In this document: one piece after another, positions 5,347 to 19,481 of the stretch
How positions within the stretch are numbered: position 1 is the first letter of the stretch
Layout of the letters: every line of letters starts with the position of its first letter
Source: SAR202 cluster bacterium Io17-Chloro-G6
GTDB taxonomy: Bacteria; Chloroflexota; Dehalococcoidia; UBA3495
DNA: 19,481 nucleotides
Assembly (NCBI GenBank): GCA_002816585.1
Contig: MUCT01000013.1
Coordinates: 1-19,481, forward strand
Direction: 5' to 3'
Made by a program: the position numbers and the translations under genes
The notes under the pieces: generated by a model
Told to the model about the DNA's origin: nothing
The model's database searches: none
The model's input: the letters and a program-made list of their open reading frames with translations, nothing else

Positions 5347-6240
5347 GTGAAACGAGCTATCGAGTTCTACAGCGAAGGCTTCAAGCTTTGCGGCGATGTC
5401 TACCTTCCGGACGGCCTGGCCGCCGGTGAGACGCGCTCGGCGGTGCTCCTATGCCACGGCTACACGGGAGTCAAAGACCTCTATTTACCGGACAACGCCC
5501 GGGTGCTCAACGAGGCCGGGTACGTGGTCATGACCTTTGATTACAAGGGTTGGGGCGACAGCGAGGGCGTCAGCCCGAACCGCTTGGTGCCCTACAGCCG
5601 GGTGGCCGACGCGCAGGCCGCCATGACGTTCCTGGGCCTCCAACCCGAGGTGAACGAGGACAGCATCGGCATCTACGGCACAAGCTATGGCGGGGCCACT
5701 GTTTCCTGGGTGGGGGCCGTGGACCCGAGGGCTAAGTGCGTCGTCAGCGTGGTTGGCATCGGCCACGGCGCGCGGTGGATGAGCCGTGTGCGCCGAATGG
5801 ATGAATGGTTCGACCTGCTGGAACGCTCCAAGGCCGACCGCGAGCAGCGCGCTCTGACCGGCAAATCAGAGATGGTGGAGCGTTCGGAGATTCTGCTACC
5901 GGACCGTCAATCAGCCGAACTGGCCGCCGCCGCCCGAGCCAACAACCCGGCCGCCGTGGGGACCATACCAGTGGAGTACGTGGACGACACCATCGGCTTC
6001 AACCCGGAGTGGATCGTGGGCCGGATATCGCCCCGGCCCATCCTGTTCGTCACCAGCGACGATGACCGCCTGGTGCCTCCAGAGGAGTCGGAGCAGCTAT
6101 ACGCCCACGCCGGGGAGCCCAAGAAACTGGTCGTGCTGAACGGTGTCGGCCACTACGAGGTCTATGTGGAACCGGCCTTCTCCCAGGTCATGGACGAAAC
6201 CATTGCCTGGTACCAGAAATACCTGCCCGCCAAGGGGTAA
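5347..6240 (+). CDS. Alpha/beta hydrolase (dienelactone hydrolase / acyl-peptidase-like)
   Basis: A cytoplasmic serine hydrolase of 297 residues. The start is GTG 5347: AGGAG at 5334-5338 stands 8 bases before it, and the frame open further upstream only overlaps the previous gene. The oxyanion region is CHGYTG (36-41), the nucleophile elbow is GTSYGG (Ser113), the acid is probably Asp240 in SDDDRLVPPE, and the base is His269 in GVGHYEVY. The core resembles the alpha/beta hydrolases that Pfam groups near Hydrolase_4 and DLH, with an inserted cap at about 140-215. It shares a transcript with the DAO-type oxidoreductase, suggesting hydrolysis and oxidation of one compound class (inference). Substrate not deducible. 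Confidence 0.9.
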   Translation: MKRAIEFYSEGFKLCGDVYLPDGLAAGETRSAVLLCHGYTGVKDLYLPDNARVLNEAGYVVMTFDYKGWGDSEGVSPNRLVPYSRVADAQAAMTFLGLQPEVNEDSIGIYGTSYGGATVSWVGAVDPRAKCVVSVVGIGHGARWMSRVRRMDEWFDLLERSKADREQRALTGKSEMVERSEILLPDRQSAELAAAARANNPAAVGTIPVEYVDDTIGFNPEWIVGRISPRPILFVTSDDDRLVPPEESEQLYAHAGEPKKLVVLNGVGHYEVYVEPAFSQVMDETIAWYQKYLPAKG

Positions 6241-6244
6241 TAGT

Positions 6245-6278
6245 CCCTTCTCCCAAAGGGCGAAGGTTAGGATGCGGG
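6245..6278. repeat. Dispersed hairpin repeat, copy 1
   Basis: CCTTC, one mismatch, CCC, loop AAA, then GGG, one mismatch, GAAGG form a short hairpin, followed by GTTAGGATGCGGG. The same arrangement (CCCTTC..CC hairpin, GAAGG, then a GGATG-type tail) recurs at 14457-14493 and, inverted and more diverged, at 14535-14569. It lies between two convergent genes. No T tract follows, so it is not a classical terminator. The remaining bases to 6327 show nothing else I can name. Confidence 0.5.
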
Positions 6279-6327
6279 CTCTTCCTCAATTCGTGGCAAC
6301 CACCACCGGCAACAAGCGCCAGCGCGC

Positions 6328-6975
6328 CTAGGGCCTCACTGCCCTCACGACCGTGCTGCTGGCGCCGTGGGAATCATGGGCACTGTGGGTTTCGGATATG
6401 GCGCCGGCCTGGCGCATGTGGGATGCATGGCCACCTGATTGGTCGTCGTCAAGAACAAATGCTCGCTCGATTTGCAGGTCCGGGAGTTCAGCAACGATTT
6501 CTTCTGGAGTCGTGAGGCTCAACAGGTCTTCCTCTGTCCAGCCGATGGGCGGCCCGGATTTGTCATGGCTGACGAACAACAATGTGCCTCCCGGAGCCAG
6601 AGCCTTTGACATCTGGGCCAGCATGTTGATCCGCTCCTGGGGGAACATCTGAATGTAGAAGCTCGTTGTCAGGTGGTAATGGCCCATGGGCCGGTATGTG
6701 GAGGCAGCAGCCAATATGAACTCGACGTTAACCTCTTCTTCGGCGGCCAGTCGCTTGCCTTTTTCGATGGCGACCTCGGAGTGGTCCACCGCCGTCACCT
6801 GCCAGCCCTGCTTTGCCAGCCAAATTGCATTACCGCCAGTACCACAGCCCATGTCCAGAGCGCGTCCCGGAGTCAAATGCTCGATCTGATCAGCTAGAAT
6901 CGCATCCGAGCCGGAGCCGCAATCCTCAATATCTGCCCACATTTCGTTCCAAAATTCTGGTGTATCGGTTGACAT
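6328..6975 (-). CDS. Class I SAM-dependent methyltransferase
   Basis: A small 215-residue methyltransferase. Motif I is ALDMGCGTGG (39-48), the acidic end of strand 2 is AVDHS (62-66), and the later strand segments LTTSFYIQMFP (102-112) and LAPGGTLLFVSH (126-137) follow in the usual order. It looks like the small-molecule methyltransferases near TehB and thiopurine methyltransferases. The C-terminal tail (about 183-205) is unusually rich in histidine (six in roughly 23 residues), which could bind a metal. It is the last gene of a three-gene minus-strand unit, 51 bases after an alpha/beta hydrolase. The ribosome site is weak (AAAGG about 12 bases before ATG). Acceptor unknown. Confidence 0.85.
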   Translation of the reverse strand: MSTDTPEFWNEMWADIEDCGSGSDAILADQIEHLTPGRALDMGCGTGGNAIWLAKQGWQVTAVDHSEVAIEKGKRLAAEEEVNVEFILAAASTYRPMGHYHLTTSFYIQMFPQERINMLAQMSKALAPGGTLLFVSHDKSGPPIGWTEEDLLSLTTPEEIVAELPDLQIERAFVLDDDQSGGHASHMRQAGAISETHSAHDSHGASSTVVRAVRP

Positions 6976-14628: not shown

Positions 14629-14705
14629 CGGGGTGTGGCCCAGTCCGGCAGGGCACCTGCATGGGGTGTAGGGGGTCGTCGGTTCGAATCCGACCACCCC
14701 GACCA
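14629..14705 (+). tRNA. tRNA-Pro (anticodon GGG), CCA encoded
   Basis: A full cloverleaf can be drawn. The acceptor stem is CGGGGTG (14629-14635) with CACCCCG (14695-14701). The D stem is GCCC (14638-14641) with GGGC (14651-14654). The anticodon stem is CCTGC with GTAGG (14656-14660, 14668-14672; one G-U), and the loop ATGGGGT puts anticodon GGG at 14663-14665. The T stem is GTCGG/CCGAC around TTCGAAT. The discriminator is A14702 and CCA is encoded at 14703-14705. The C1-G72 pair is typical of bacterial tRNA-Pro. The anticodon reads CCC and CCU. Confidence 0.97.
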
Positions 14706-14716
14706 AAACGAAAGTG

Positions 14717-14751
14717 AAAGAGGCCGCTCAATTTGAACGGCCTCTTTTTTT
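14717..14751 (+). terminator. Rho-independent terminator of tRNA-Pro
   Basis: AAAGAGGCCG (14717-14726) pairs perfectly with CGGCCTCTTT (14738-14747) around an 11-base loop, followed by more T's to 14751. It ends the tRNA transcript 12 bases after the CCA and lies 23 bases from the convergent TauE/SafE stop codon, where it may also act weakly in reverse. Confidence 0.9.
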
Positions 14752-14773
14752 GTTTGCTTACTGCGTTGGCAGA

Positions 14774-15580
14774 TTACTGGATTATTCCCCGCCATATGAG
14801 GATCAACCCAACGGCCAAGAGCACGTAGCCCATGGCGTTGACCAGGGTGGCCAAGTCCACTTTGCCGGTTAGTTTTGCCCCGTAGTAGCTGCCCACTGCG
14901 GCCCCAGCGCCCATCAGCAAAAGAAGCTGGTAGTCGACCTGACCGTGCAGCGCATGGCCCACCCAGCCCAGCGATCCCATTATGAAGCCGATGAACAGGT
15001 TGGTGCCCGCGGCGATCCGTGGGTCCACTTTCAGGATTCTGATCAGCGCCGGCAGACGTATGCTGCCCAATATGAGACCCACCGCCCCGCCCAGGAGGCC
15101 CACCGTCAGTCCCAATCCCCCGCCGAGCAACAGACGCCTCCCGGTGTACGGCACGTCGCCCCCATCGCCACTGGCGGCGGCAGCCTGCTTGCCCCTGGCC
15201 CGAAGTTCCACCCCCTGCCAGAGCACCAGCAGGCCGGCGGCGGTGAGGAGGATGGACTCGGAGACTCGGCCTCCCAGGAAACCGCCCACAAAAGCACCCG
15301 CGAAGGCTGGGCCGCCCATGATCAACACGAGGCGGAAATTGACCCGCCCTTCACGCAAGTGCCTGACCGCCCCAAATATGGAACTGATGCTGCTGACCAA
15401 GATGTTGGTCCCGCCTACGGTGGGCGCAGCCAACCCCATCAGCAGCATGGCCGGGAGCCGCATGGTTCCCAGAGCCAGCCCTACGAACCCTCCCAGCAGG
15501 CCTACCGCCAGGGAAACCGCCGCCAGAACGACGGCATTCCAGACCAGAACGTCTGAGCCCCAGCCCAGTGTTGCGTCCAT
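14774..15580 (-). CDS. Sulfite exporter TauE/SafE family permease
   Basis: An inner-membrane anion transporter of 268 residues, nearly all hydrophobic, with about eight helices. The family's internal duplication is obvious: VGLLGGFVGLALGTMRLPA (26-44) with GGTNILV (56-62) in the first half, and VGLLGGAVGLILGSIRLPA (160-178) with AGTNLFI (191-197) in the second. Known family members export sulfite, sulfoacetate or other organosulfur anions; the exact cargo cannot be read from sequence. The two halves are joined by a hydrophilic loop (about 126-148). AAAGGA stands 6 bases before the ATG. Together with LLM monooxygenases, some of which release sulfite from sulfonates, it hints at organosulfur metabolism, but no sulfonatase or sulfur regulator is present. 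Confidence 0.92.
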   Translation of the reverse strand: MDATLGWGSDVLVWNAVVLAAVSLAVGLLGGFVGLALGTMRLPAMLLMGLAAPTVGGTNILVSSISSIFGAVRHLREGRVNFRLVLIMGGPAFAGAFVGGFLGGRVSESILLTAAGLLVLWQGVELRARGKQAAAASGDGGDVPYTGRRLLLGGGLGLTVGLLGGAVGLILGSIRLPALIRILKVDPRIAAGTNLFIGFIMGSLGWVGHALHGQVDYQLLLLMGAGAAVGSYYGAKLTGKVDLATLVNAMGYVLLAVGLILIWRGIIQ

Positions 15581-15629
15581 TCGATTCCTTTGCTGACTGG
15601 ATCCCTAGTTTCAGATGACGGGCGAAATC

Positions 15630-15666
15630 AGAGCGCCGGAGGGATGGAGTCCCTACCCGGCGCTCT
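15630..15666. repeat. Strong stem-loop between the TauE/SafE gene and the LLM gene
   Basis: AGAGCGCCGG (15630-15639) pairs perfectly with CCGGCGCTCT (15657-15666). Inside, AGGGA pairs with TCCCT around TGGAG, with a two-base bulge on one side: 15 base pairs in total. It lies in the 124-base gap between the end of the LLM gene (15705) and the start of the TauE/SafE gene (15580), both on the minus strand. No T tract follows on either strand, so it may be a rho-independent-like stop without U's, an RNA-stabilising hairpin or a repeat. Confidence 0.6.
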
Positions 15667-15704
15667 TGTGTAGAGTCGGTCGCTCTGAAGATTCGATTCG
15701 GCTT

Positions 15705-16889
15705 CTAGGCAGGTCTTGCCACGTTGAACTTGGGCATGACCTCTTTGCCAAAGCGCTCTAGCTGCTCGATCATCACGTCCAGTGGAGTTCCCATGCGGTT
15801 GCAACCCACGTGCATGTACTCCAGCCCGGGGTACTTGTCTTGGATTTCCATGATTTTCTCCGTGATCTGCTCCGCAGTGCCACACAGCCATGACCCTGCA
15901 GCAACTGTCTCTTCCATGGTGGGCAGCCCGGCGGAGGGGGCCCGCTTGGGATCGCCCAGGGCATCAATCATCTCCGGAGTGAAGGCGCGGAAGAAGCCCA
16001 ATGGAGCGAACATCTTCATGTCTTCTTCCAAATATTTCCTGGCCTGTTTGATGGCCTCTTTCTCACTGTCGGCGATGAACGTGGGCAGACCAAGCACCAG
16101 CCTGCTGCCCATCTGAGCATCTGTGTGACCGTAGTTGACCAGTGTGTCGGTCCAGCGCTTGATCACTTCGTCATTGGGACCGCCTGTTACCGCGCCGCCG
16201 CCGACGATCGGCTGGATGTCGTGCTTGGCCATGAAATCCATGGCCCGCTGGCTGGCGCTGACCATGGGCTGCCAGGTCTCCACCGGCAGGTGCTTGGGCC
16301 GTGGCACCAAGGTGATCTCCTTTAGCGTGTAGCCCCGGTATGGGACCTCCGGCGGGAGGGTGTAGTGCTTGCCTTTGAATGAGAAGGACTCTTCATTGAA
16401 GGCCTTCATGATGATCTCGATCTGTTCTTCGAACATTTCCCGGTTGGCGTCGTTGTCCGAGTTGGTGCTGGGCACACCGAAGGTATCGACTTCCCGGGAG
16501 TGGTAGCCCCGGCCCACTCCGAAGATCACCCGTCCGTTGGTCAGGATGTCGGCGGTGGCGTAGTCTTCGGCCAAGCGCAGGGGATGCCACATTGGGTTAA
16601 TGTTGAAGCCGCAGCCGAATTTCAATTGCTTGGTCAGGTTGGCCAGGTGCACGTAAAGGAGCAGCAGGTTGGGAATGACCTCATTCCCCTCATGCTGGAA
16701 GTGGTGCTCAGCGGCCCAAAAGCTGTGGTAGCCCAGGTCATCCATTACTTTGACCATCTTCTCCACCCGGTCGAAGATGGTTATCAGATGGTCATTGTCG
16801 AAGCGGCGGTCATTGAGGGCGGTGGCGCCGAGCCCGATATCGCCCAGGTCAACATGTCCGGCATACAGGCTGCCAAAATACTTAAGCAT
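15705..16889 (-). CDS. LLM class flavin-dependent oxidoreductase (long form)
   Basis: A luciferase-like monooxygenase of 394 residues, longer than the other two here because of insertions after strand 1 and near 135-175. Marks are WAAEHHF (58-64), WHPLRLAEDYATADILTNGR (101-120), the FMN-phosphate segment VIFGVGRGYHSREVDTFG (121-138), a central ASQRAMDFMAKHDI stretch where the enzyme contacts flavin in relatives, and the C-terminal CGTAEQITEKI. The subgroup differs clearly from the enzymes at 1966 and 11939, so these are not recent duplicates. AAGGA lies 8 bases before the ATG, and a TTGACA-16-TAGAAT promoter lies upstream. It is divergent from a GMC oxidoreductase and is followed by a stem-loop and TauE/SafE. 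Confidence 0.93.
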   Translation of the reverse strand: MLKYFGSLYAGHVDLGDIGLGATALNDRRFDNDHLITIFDRVEKMVKVMDDLGYHSFWAAEHHFQHEGNEVIPNLLLLYVHLANLTKQLKFGCGFNINPMWHPLRLAEDYATADILTNGRVIFGVGRGYHSREVDTFGVPSTNSDNDANREMFEEQIEIIMKAFNEESFSFKGKHYTLPPEVPYRGYTLKEITLVPRPKHLPVETWQPMVSASQRAMDFMAKHDIQPIVGGGAVTGGPNDEVIKRWTDTLVNYGHTDAQMGSRLVLGLPTFIADSEKEAIKQARKYLEEDMKMFAPLGFFRAFTPEMIDALGDPKRAPSAGLPTMEETVAAGSWLCGTAEQITEKIMEIQDKYPGLEYMHVGCNRMGTPLDVMIEQLERFGKEVMPKFNVARPA

Positions 16890-16922
16890 GGTTACTATCC
16901 TTGGTTCAGATTGGCTCTTGCC

Positions 16923-16950
16923 ATTCTAATGGCGCACCCACCGATGTCAA
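16923..16950 (-). promoter_or_regulatory. Sigma70-type promoter for the LLM gene at 15705-16889
   Basis: On the minus strand: a perfect TTGACA (16950-16945), a 16-base spacer and TAGAAT (16928-16923). The predicted start is near 16916, about 26 bases before the ATG at 16889. Confidence 0.65.
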
Positions 16951-16981
16951 TCACCGGCTGAGCGGCTTCCAGCGGCCGAAG

Positions 16982-17010
16982 TTGACGCTGCCTGAAGCCG
17001 CCAGTATTAT
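16982..17010 (+). promoter_or_regulatory. Sigma70-type promoter for the GMC oxidoreductase locus
   Basis: TTGACG (16982-16987), a 17-base spacer and TATTAT (17005-17010). The predicted start is near 17017, 50 bases before ATG 17067. Its -35 is 32 bases from the divergent LLM -35, so the two promoters could share a regulator. It shows that the broken GMC gene still has an intact promoter that could drive the downstream TPR gene. Confidence 0.6.
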
Positions 17011-17066
17011 CCAGGTTGTGCCAGGGAAGGCCCGGGCAATTAGACGTGAAGAAAGGGAGAGCGTAG

Positions 17067-17348
17067 ATGAAGTACGACACGATCGTTGTCGGGGCCGGCT
17101 CAGCCGGTTCGATCATGGCTTCCCGGCTCAGCGAGGACCCAAAGCATTCTGTCTTGCTGTTGGAGGCAGGACCGGACTACCCCGAGTTCGAGCAACTTCC
17201 CGACGAGGTGAAGTTCGGTTACGCGACTGCAACCGATATCATGACCAGCGACCACAACTGGCAGTTCTGGGGCAAGGCCACCGAGACTTCCCGGCCCATG
17301 ATGGTTCCTCGCGGTAAGGTGACCGGCGGCTCCAGCGCCGACGCCTAA
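17067..17348 (+). pseudogene. GMC oxidoreductase, N-terminal remnant
   Basis: The first 93 residues of a glucose-methanol-choline oxidoreductase, an FAD enzyme that oxidises alcohols. The FAD motif VVGAGSAG (7-14), SRLSEDP (19-25), LLLEAGP with Glu33, and NWQFWGKA (64-71) all match the family in order. The reading stops inside GMC signature 1: [11 protein letters not shown] should continue with Ile/Leu-Asn but meets Asp-Ala and then two stops in a row (TAA TAG at 17346-17351). Family members are about 530 residues, so over 80% is missing here; the C-terminal part reappears at 18862-19452. The start has a good ribosome site (AAAGGGAG, 17052-17059) and a promoter. It cannot form a working enzyme alone. 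Confidence 0.88.
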
Positions 17349-17354
17349 TAGGCG
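17342..17354. repeat. Short inverted repeat at the left break point of the GMC gene
   Basis: CGCCTA (17342-17347), one base, TAGGCG (17349-17354): a perfect 6-1-6 palindrome exactly where GMC similarity ends. It may mark the junction of the inserted segment. I found no matching direct repeat or longer terminal repeat at the right junction, so the mechanism stays open. Between here and 17470 no other feature is visible. Confidence 0.4.
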
Positions 17355-17470
17355 AATTGAGCTGGTGACGCCAGTTCCGTTTCTTTGTCACTCGTGCCGA
17401 CGTCGCAGTGTTGCATTCCTCACCCGCAACGACCTAGCCCAGGTATCTCAGCAGATCTAAAGGCCGAGCG

Positions 17471-18862
17471 ATGGAAATTTTAATTCTTATTGCAGTTGTC
17501 CTAGCATTACCTCTTTGGGGCTATGTGTTAAATCGGATTTTGGGGCTTTTCTTAGGCGTTGTGGGTCTCTTGTTAGGACAGAGAAACCTCGGTCGTCCGT
17601 ATACAAACGATCCAGTCCCACGATTTTCCTCGTGGATTCCGACCGGACACTCCAAGGAACTATGGAAGCCAGAAGAGGACGAGTTTCTCATTTACAACCC
17701 GTTCTGGACGGACGAGCAAAGATCCTTAGGCAGCTACTCTTGGGGCCGCTTTATTAGATGGGGCACACACTGCTCGGCGTGCTATCGGGAGACCGGAGTG
17801 TTGTCGGGGGAGTTGGTAGCGTCAAAGCATGGGATCTACGAATTCGTCCCCTTTCTTTTTATGACAATACAGGACACGACACTTGACCTTAATGAATACT
17901 TTCCACTTTGCACCTCTTGCGCCTCGCGGGAGCAAAGCGTAAGAGGCTTTTTCAACTCCCGTTCTCCGCATGTAACGGGTATCGATTGGCAAAGTCTTAG
18001 ATGGATTAAACTCCAGATACCGAACCATGAATATGCAGACTGGTTCCAAGCGGCTAACCCGGCGGTTATACTGTCGCGAGGCTTCAAACTGCGGGAGTTG
18101 GCAGATCGAATCACCCAGTTGACACACCACGTTCCTCCGCTTTCGCGTGGCTCCAGTCCGGCCGATCACCATTTCGCCGCTGGAGATAATCTGGTGATAC
18201 AGGAACGTTATCGAGAAGCTGTGGCTGCGTATAGCATGGCCATTGGGTTCAACCCCGATTTTGTCGCCGCCTACCAGAGTCGAGGTCGGGTGTACACTTG
18301 GCTAGGTGAGTACGACCAAGCCATCAAGGATTATGACGAGTCAATCCGCTTGAACCCCGAGTCTGCCCGAGCTTACGCGTACCGCGGCTTGGCCTACAGT
18401 GACCTAGACCAACATAACAGGGCGATAGAAGATTACGGCCAAACCGTTGGGCTGGACCCCCGGTATCCGGGCATATACACTTACCGCGGCCTTTCCCACC
18501 ACGATCTCGGCCACTACCAAGAAGCCATTAGAGACTACGACGAGGCCATTCGCCTCGAAGAGATCGAAGTATGGGAGCTCCCTGCCGACGTCGCCCATCT
18601 CTCCCCGGAGGACCCGATGAACCACATCTACAGGGCTTGGGCCTATATTTCGCTACGTCAGTACGAGCGAGCTATCCAAGACTTGGACCGGGCCATTCAA
18701 CTTGATCCGAAGGTTGCTGTGTCCTACGCTTACCGGGCCGTGGTGAACACTTGGCTGAGTAAAGATGCGGAGGCCAGCCGGGAACTTGATCAGGCGGTGG
18801 GGCTAGGGTACGACTCCACTTTGCTGCAAGAGGAGATTGAGAAGATCAAGGGGCAACGCTAA
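17471..18862 (+). CDS. Membrane-anchored tetratricopeptide (TPR) protein with two CxxC pairs
   Basis: An uncharacterised 463-residue protein inserted in a GMC oxidoreductase gene. Residues 3-36 are strongly hydrophobic, one or two membrane helices without a clear signal-peptidase site. Next is a domain of about 190 residues that I do not recognise, rich in aromatic residues and holding HCSAC (Cys101, Cys104) and LCTSC (Cys147, Cys150), which together could bind one zinc ion. From about 231 to 450 there are some six TPR repeats with the usual Gly/Ala/Tyr spacing (for example AYAYRGLAYSDLDQHNRAIEDY), broken by an insert at 365-383. Such repeats bind proteins. AAAGG (17459-17463) lies 7 bases before ATG. 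The 5' part is visibly AT-richer than its neighbours, consistent with transfer. Function unknown. Confidence 0.85.
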   Translation: MEILILIAVVLALPLWGYVLNRILGLFLGVVGLLLGQRNLGRPYTNDPVPRFSSWIPTGHSKELWKPEEDEFLIYNPFWTDEQRSLGSYSWGRFIRWGTHCSACYRETGVLSGELVASKHGIYEFVPFLFMTIQDTTLDLNEYFPLCTSCASREQSVRGFFNSRSPHVTGIDWQSLRWIKLQIPNHEYADWFQAANPAVILSRGFKLRELADRITQLTHHVPPLSRGSSPADHHFAAGDNLVIQERYREAVAAYSMAIGFNPDFVAAYQSRGRVYTWLGEYDQAIKDYDESIRLNPESARAYAYRGLAYSDLDQHNRAIEDYGQTVGLDPRYPGIYTYRGLSHHDLGHYQEAIRDYDEAIRLEEIEVWELPADVAHLSPEDPMNHIYRAWAYISLRQYERAIQDLDRAIQLDPKVAVSYAYRAVVNTWLSKDAEASRELDQAVGLGYDSTLLQEEIEKIKGQR

Positions 18863-19452
18863 TGCCACGCCGTAGCCGAGAGTCCTGGTCCGAACTGGTG
18901 CGGTGGCTAATCTCCACCGACCCCAACGAGCAGCCTTTCCTGGACTACCGGTACCTGCGTGACCCCTTCGACCGGCAGCGAATGCGGGAGATGGTGCGCA
19001 CCTGTGTCAGCCTGGCCGAGCACGAGAACTTTAAGGACATCGTCGAGTCCCGCATCGAGCCCACCGGCGAGGAGATGGCCTCGGACGATGCATTGGATGC
19101 TTTTTGCGCCCGGGACGCCACCACGGGGCAACACATATCGGGCACCTGCAAGATGGGTCCTGCCTCGGACAACATGGCAGTGGTTGACCAGCACGGCCGA
19201 GTCCACGGCCTGGAGAACCTACGCATAGCCGACGCGTCGGTGATGCCCAATTGCATTCGCGCCAACACCAACGTCACCACCATTATGATCGGCGAACGCA
19301 TGGCCGACTTCATCCGTAACGGGGGGTGGGGCTGCGGTATCCGCGGTCGGGCCTCACCGGGCAACCATGCCTCAATCCGCTCATGGTGTGTAAACGGCGG
19401 AGTAATAATGTGCCACAGAGGCGGTAGAGCCGCAGCGGTAGCGGCGGTTTAA
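18862..19452 (+). pseudogene. GMC oxidoreductase, C-terminal remnant
   Basis: The C-terminal catalytic part of a GMC oxidoreductase. GMC-like sequence begins around residue 11-18 (LISTDPNEQPFLDYRYL) and runs to about 153. His91 in GQHISGTCKMG and Asn137 in RANTNVTT are the two active-site residues of the family, and NLRIADASVMP joins them. The FAD-binding N-terminus is absent; it lies at 17067-17348. The open frame starts at an ATG overlapping the TPR stop (TAATG, 18860-18864), so it could be translated by coupling, but the first ten or so residues are not family-like. Family members end near MADFIRNG; here 40 more low-complexity residues follow a G-rich run at 19320-19330, suggesting the original stop was lost. 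A middle section of roughly 300 residues, including GMC signature 2, is missing. Confidence 0.85.
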
Positions 19453-19464
19453 AATTGTACCGCC
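19443..19464. terminator. Small hairpin at the end of the GMC remnant
   Basis: GGCGGT (19443-19448) pairs with ACCGCC (19459-19464) around a 10-base AT-rich loop, overlapping the stop codon of the remnant. No T tract follows, so it is a weak terminator candidate only. Confidence 0.3.
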
Positions 19465-19481
19465 CGAGGTCTTCTCTCTAA

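Follow-up and report, generated by a model that had tools for sequence, protein, structure and literature searches.

The locus described here raises a simple question: how does a gene for a membrane-anchored protein come to lie between the two ends of an oxidoreductase gene? The stretch of DNA analyzed, referred to as the window, comprises 19,481 nt of contig MUCT01000013.1 from the SAR202 cluster bacterium Io17-Chloro-G6, and window coordinates are used throughout. Near its right end, the initial annotation recognized both ends of a GMC oxidoreductase gene and, between them, a CxxC/TPR gene that might be mobile cargo. The two flanks derive from one gene, a stretch of that gene is missing, the insert looks foreign, and its ends are not element-like. 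The account toward which we lean, with somewhat better than even confidence, is a recent, one-off replacement by foreign DNA, through illegitimate recombination, in one of many GMC genes.

One GMC gene in two pieces

According to Pfam, the left piece is a Rossmann-type FAD/NAD-binding start, and the right piece carries the GMC_oxred_C domain (PF05199, E 1.3e-34). The left piece includes the FAD-binding GxGxxG motif (GAGSAG, residues 9-14) and GGSSA at residues 87-91; the rest of GMC signature 1 is absent, and choline-dehydrogenase models match residues 1-91 far under their whole-protein cut-offs, as expected of a fragment. The right-hand open reading frame (18862-19452) has the H91 and N137 that had been noted in it, which we take to be the catalytic His and Asn of GMC_oxred_C. 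The continuous reading frame of the gene is broken: the pieces lie about 1.57 kb apart, in different frames and with stops between them.

The two pieces had been described as fragments of one gene on the same strand and in the right order, and blastn bears this out, because one orthologue matches both. A search for the uninterrupted homologue, proposed at the same time, yielded an intact orthologue of 516 residues (this length in eight of nine loci that were read through, the gene start in L005 being masked by scattered N) and defined the missing segment. The best relatives found with both pieces (L001-L007) are titled SAR202, Dehalococcoidia or Chloroflexi bacteria. The left flank, consisting of a luciferase-like monooxygenase gene and the GMC start, is syntenic with L002-L007 and L020, and the intact orthologue occupies the same place in close SAR202/Chloroflexota relatives.

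In blastn comparisons, L002 matches the window at 14655-17339 (84%) and again at 18905-19325 (86%), and the 853 bp between its two matching pieces (L002 9152-10004) are unmatched. The event is thus a replacement and not a simple insertion, as had been proposed; the rounded sizes given at the time, about 300 codons lost and 1.55 kb gained, become approximately 284 codons (~853 bp) and 1,565 bp when measured. The left match breaks at 17338/17339 in L001-L004, L006-L008 and L020, which confirms a break within signature 1 just after GGSSA; in L005 it stops at 17236, where N begin. Relatives carry on signature 1 past GGSSA, whereas in the window GGSSA is followed by two foreign codons (DA) and then a pair of stops. 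At the right-hand break, similarity restarts at 18905-18919 in L001-L008, and in the window GMC sequence returns at about 18905, just ahead of the conserved STDPNEQP box. The extents first assigned to the fragments therefore hold in their cores only: only 91 of the 93 residues given to the N-terminal piece are GMC, the final DA being foreign like the stops after it; the open reading frame at 18862-19452 is GMC at its core, with about 14 foreign codons at its start and about 42 codons past the relatives' stop at its end.

GMC genes are common in this lineage. Some match at E <= 1e-100 is found in 49 of 50 family genomes, and the complete orthologue (residues 1-516) at >=88% identity in at least seven genomes (G001-G004, G006, G007 and G340, where G003 is the query's own genome). 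Among the matches listed at >=83% protein identity, seven are complete and two partial, one owing to scattered N (G005, 83%) and the other a further G004 copy (92%) that runs off the end of contig L020 at residue 368. Ten genomes viewed in detail have 3-24 GMC matches each (131 in total). Expansion of catabolic paralogues in SAR202 is among the points made in PMC10444878. Both window fragments fall in the 516-residue orthologue group of the GMC oxidoreductases (choline dehydrogenase / MftG-like) of SAR202 Chloroflexota, but the window copy differs from those of its relatives in lacking residues ~92-375 and in its split frame.

With several GMC genes per genome, the two pieces could in principle stem from different paralogues joined by a larger rearrangement, which had been named as the case that would overturn the single-gene reading. 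The C-terminal piece, however, is 83-90% identical to L001-L007 and at most 71% identical to the next loci, the N-terminal piece differs from L003 by only about three nonsynonymous changes in 91 codons, and most of the other matches in the ten genomes share 45-80% identity with the orthologue. Both fragments are closest to the same orthologue group, and we consider an origin from two paralogues very improbable, the least probable of the readings discussed here.

Layout and apparent foreign character of the inserted segment

The features of the locus are collected in Table 1.

Table 1. Features of the interrupted GMC gene and its insert, in window coordinates
Feature	Position	Strand	Remarks
GMC oxidoreductase, N-terminal 91 codons	17067..17339	+	Stops after GGSSA of signature 1; 90% DNA identity to L001
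Probable foreign segment replacing ~853 bp of GMC	17340..18904	.	Right edge placed to within ~15 bp; unmatched in compared relatives
Two codons (DA) and two tandem stops	17340..17351	+	From sequence; taken as putative 3' end of a donor gene
Terminator-like hairpin, then CGTTTCTTTG	17359..17377	+	Terminator scan; weak
AAAGG, possible ribosome-binding site of TPR gene	17459..17463	+	By eye
TPR gene, 463-residue protein	17471..18862	+	Hydrophobic N-terminal helix, orphan region, TPR domain
AAGGGG, possible ribosome-binding site of downstream donor gene	18848..18853	+	By eye
ATG overlapping TPR stop and ~14 codons (MPRRSRESWSELVR)	18862..18904	+	Taken as putative donor gene start, in-frame fusion to GMC C-terminus
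GMC C-terminal ~140 residues, same orthologue	18905..19326	+	GMC_oxred_C; 82-87% DNA identity to L001-L007
ORF extension past stop position of intact relatives	19327..19452	+	Sequence comparison

The sole gene-like open reading frame of the insert is the TPR gene. An earlier description as a complete unrelated gene holds for the gene itself, which is whole; the segment is larger and seems to take in part of a gene on either side of the TPR gene. Its left edge resembles the 3' end of an upstream donor gene. At the right edge, the TPR stop and an ATG overlap at 18860-18864 with AAGGGG ahead, and GMC sequence follows about 14 codons on in the same frame; this edge may be where a translationally coupled donor gene began, whose reading frame happened to run on into the GMC C-terminus. 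Judged from this layout, the insert appears to have been cut out of a donor operon rather than to be a self-contained cassette.

Composition supports a foreign origin of the insert: GC3 is 0.54 in the orphan part and 0.65 in the TPR part of the gene, compared with 0.66-0.82 in 14 other window genes and 0.79-0.82 in the GMC pieces. A scan of 17000-19481 detected no sigma-70-like promoter and three terminator-like sites against 1.9 expected. Repeat, fold, Rfam, tRNA and promoter/terminator scans of the insert borders returned nothing except the weak terminator-like hairpin, DNA folding of the edges was not unusual (z -0.28 and 0.87), and attC core sites were sought by eye only. The two edges are unlike each other, and a repeat common to both junctions was not found.

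An alternative is that the TPR gene is cargo of a small mobile cassette that lacks an integrase and moves by an unrecognized route. One whole gene with an orphan N-terminal part is compatible with this, as is the lack of a transposase or integrase, which had been remarked at the outset and still stands (no long repeat was found at the insert either). Small, passively moved segments may also exist in the group, given an integrase-less two-gene segment of ~0.9 kb in L002. However, terminal inverted repeats and target duplications were likewise not found at the insert, its edges seem to cut into neighboring genes, and about 853 bp of target were lost; integron cassettes are not known to delete target DNA. 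The TPR gene had been proposed for a search in related genomes, and no second copy was found in 393 class genomes by DNA, where the insert gave only a 28-bp TPR-coding match, or in 294 by protein. Nor is there a comparable replacement among the 131 GMC matches in the ten genomes. With no N-terminal relative, no second insert copy and borders unlike those of an element, the idea of a mobile cargo gene has become improbable. A stronger version, in which fragments without an integrase spread an orphan family of membrane-anchored CxxC/TPR genes through SAR202-type Chloroflexota, overwriting expendable paralogues by targeting of their own, is more improbable still.

The TPR protein

The protein has a hydrophobic helix at residues 1-40, CxxC motifs at 101 and 147, and TPR from about residue 230 (Pfam for TPR). 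A single-sequence AlphaFold2 model has a mean pLDDT of 39.7 and is confident only for residues 1-30 (91-93), with moderate values for 31-40 (73), together one helix. The start of the protein at 17471 is not certain, because frame-score margins are small over residues 1-110 and 111-221 and the database gene call (P0001, 353 aa) begins at residue 111 (17801); a comparison of all six frames with codon usage in the other genes nonetheless ranks the annotated one first in every part of the open reading frame.

Searches of the orphan region, all run without a positive control, recovered no relative beyond the window's own protein. Residues 1-235 compared with 5.8 billion proteins (2868 candidates sharing 5-residue words) returned only P0001, which is a cluster with two member sequences. 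Residues 1-221 gave no match at E 1 in PADLOC, NCBIfam or PHROGs, a single match in Pfam (E 0.087), and none by tblastn in phage and plasmid records. Residues 1-220 were not found in any of 294 class genomes by protein, and residues 37-220 in none of four further genomes. Matches to residues 37-220 in 20 of 400 phylum genomes (E 0.002-0.09) were dismissed as chance, with internal stops in 12 of 21 rows.

The TPR domain is up to 43% identical over ~200 residues, and up to 54% over 80, to many TPR proteins; these relatives are generic, and no donor lineage can be named from them. A viral origin was considered and rejected, as the two viral loci matched did so in TPR repeats only. SAR202 relatives have TPR proteins of ~250 residues with a short hydrophobic start (e.g., L083 1450-2187, ~37% identical in the TPR part). 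The window protein thus resembles generic bacterial TPR proteins in its TPR domain, and these SAR202 proteins also in the hydrophobic start, but it differs in having ~190 residues with two CxxC motifs between anchor and TPR, for which no relatives were found. In L083, L084, L086 and L088, the ~250-residue TPR gene adjoins a ~410-residue open reading frame, which presumably resembles a hydantoinase/carbamoylase-type amidohydrolase.

Age of the break and integrity of the contig

Selection on the GMC fragments was assessed from Nei-Gojobori counts over both pieces, with simple three-taxon topologies assumed. The dN/dS values are 0.057-0.092 on the window branch (four comparisons) and 0.035-0.109 on the branches of intact relatives (eight comparisons), with no sign of relaxed selection. 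By eye, the pieces have a few replacements at otherwise conserved residues, no more than relatives have. The main sign of decay is the loss of the usual GMC stop at 19327-19329. Because the fragments evolve like intact genes, the break would either have happened very recently or be an artefact, and in the case of a chimeric contig selection may still be acting on the gene in the real genome. The recent date first suggested therefore stands provided that the contig is true.

When the tail of the window (19325-19481) was aligned with the DNA downstream of the gene in seven relatives, 1 of 100 shuffles did equally well for L001, 3 of 100 for L003, and 27-86 of 100 for the other five. The tail and the DNA downstream of GMC in L003 have a 13-nt word in common, TCCGCTCATGGTG, which is not significant (3 of 100 shuffles).

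In a chimeric contig, a foreign fragment would have been joined between the GMC pieces during library preparation or assembly. We regard this as a serious possibility, though one well short of even. The arrangement is known from one sequence only, a single contig, probably a metagenome record, in which the right GMC piece lies at the contig end (~0.6 kb from it), and unchanged purifying selection in both fragments is the picture of a gene that was never broken. The same stretch of the gene also troubles assemblers elsewhere: N are scattered over residues ~57-99 in L119, and contig G327 C204 ends at residue 95 of the gene. A chimera, however, needs two false joins to one gene, in the right order and on the right strand, and the lost GMC stop is a weak hint of real decay.

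Neither join is bridged by a long match in the comparison loci: no exact match of >=20 nt across either junction occurs in 119 loci, a weak test, since these include neither donor nor sample. The longest exact matches over the junctions are 13 nt on the left and 9-15 nt on the right, compared with a mean of 11.3 nt and a maximum of 13 nt at 30 places inside the insert; the 15-nt match near the right join is unrelated DNA of L020.

Partial GMC matches account for 21 of the 131 rows in the ten genomes, and 17 of these stop within ~60 bp of a contig start or end. Of the other four, three belong to a single gene on G331 C71 that is broken up by short gaps, and the last is a remote (35%) match. The 17 contig-end breaks fall at residues 20, 53, 95, 163, 164, 201, 205, 275, 311, 320, 338, 360, 368, 396, 403, 420 and 492. 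A breakage hot spot at GMC signature 1 is not established, as these are 17 different residues and only one (95) is near the break of the window; this scarcity near residues 91-95 also speaks against a chimera.

The scattered N in L119 (G005 C41, reverse strand) lie over the conserved region of the signature and often fall at third codon positions, as if reads of several paralogues or strains had been merged.

A proposed route by illegitimate recombination

In the one-off replacement that we favor, a foreign fragment of ~1.57 kb, apparently from an operon, would have entered a SAR202-type bacterium, perhaps by DNA uptake or in the course of repair. Two non-homologous (illegitimate) joins would have placed it in the GMC gene, and ~853 bp of host GMC between the joins would have been lost. 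Illegitimate recombination of a fragment gives just this outcome, two such joins and the loss of the intervening DNA. The TPR gene would have come in complete and is possibly, but not necessarily, expressed. The GMC enzyme is presumably inactive, as its FAD-binding start and catalytic C-terminus are now in separate open reading frames, and the loss of this copy is probably tolerable, given the many GMC genes of the lineage. The event looks like an accident and not like a new mobile element.

A 2002 study and the work of Hulter and Wackernagel (2008) are cited in connection with the mechanism of illegitimate recombination. The locus resembles illegitimate or homology-directed illegitimate recombination in that foreign DNA replaces a stretch of the recipient without element ends; it differs in that the process in the window is deduced rather than observed, and the searches of protein and genome collections described above turned up no donor sequence. 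PMC4437187 describes how non-homologous DNA can be integrated, whether or not a homologous anchor is present, and PMC8116780 gives illegitimate recombination in Acinetobacter baylyi as less frequent than Tn1 transposition.

If real, the locus shows, cleanly and soon after the event, that foreign DNA entered a SAR202 genome with no mobile element and disabled one member of an expanded flavoenzyme family, and the relatives fix the break points to a few bases. Replacement-type illegitimate transfer in an environmental lineage would then have an example here, although only a single event. If the contig is a chimera, the locus is a caution against inferring gene gains from single metagenome contigs.

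A tRNA-associated segment in a relative

The one tRNA found, tRNA-Pro at 14629-14705, is distant from the insert, at whose borders no tRNA-end repeat was found. In L002, at the homologous position (~5511-6510), a ~50-bp exact copy of the tRNA-Pro 3' end, seen by eye, flanks a segment of ~0.9 kb. The two genes of this segment are for a nucleotidyltransferase (NTP_transf_2, E 2e-8) and for a HEPN protein (E 3.5e-19), and there is no other long open reading frame on that strand. From its gene content and flanking repeat it looks like a minimal integrase-less element with a HEPN/MNT toxin-antitoxin-type pair, and the window has the empty site for this segment.
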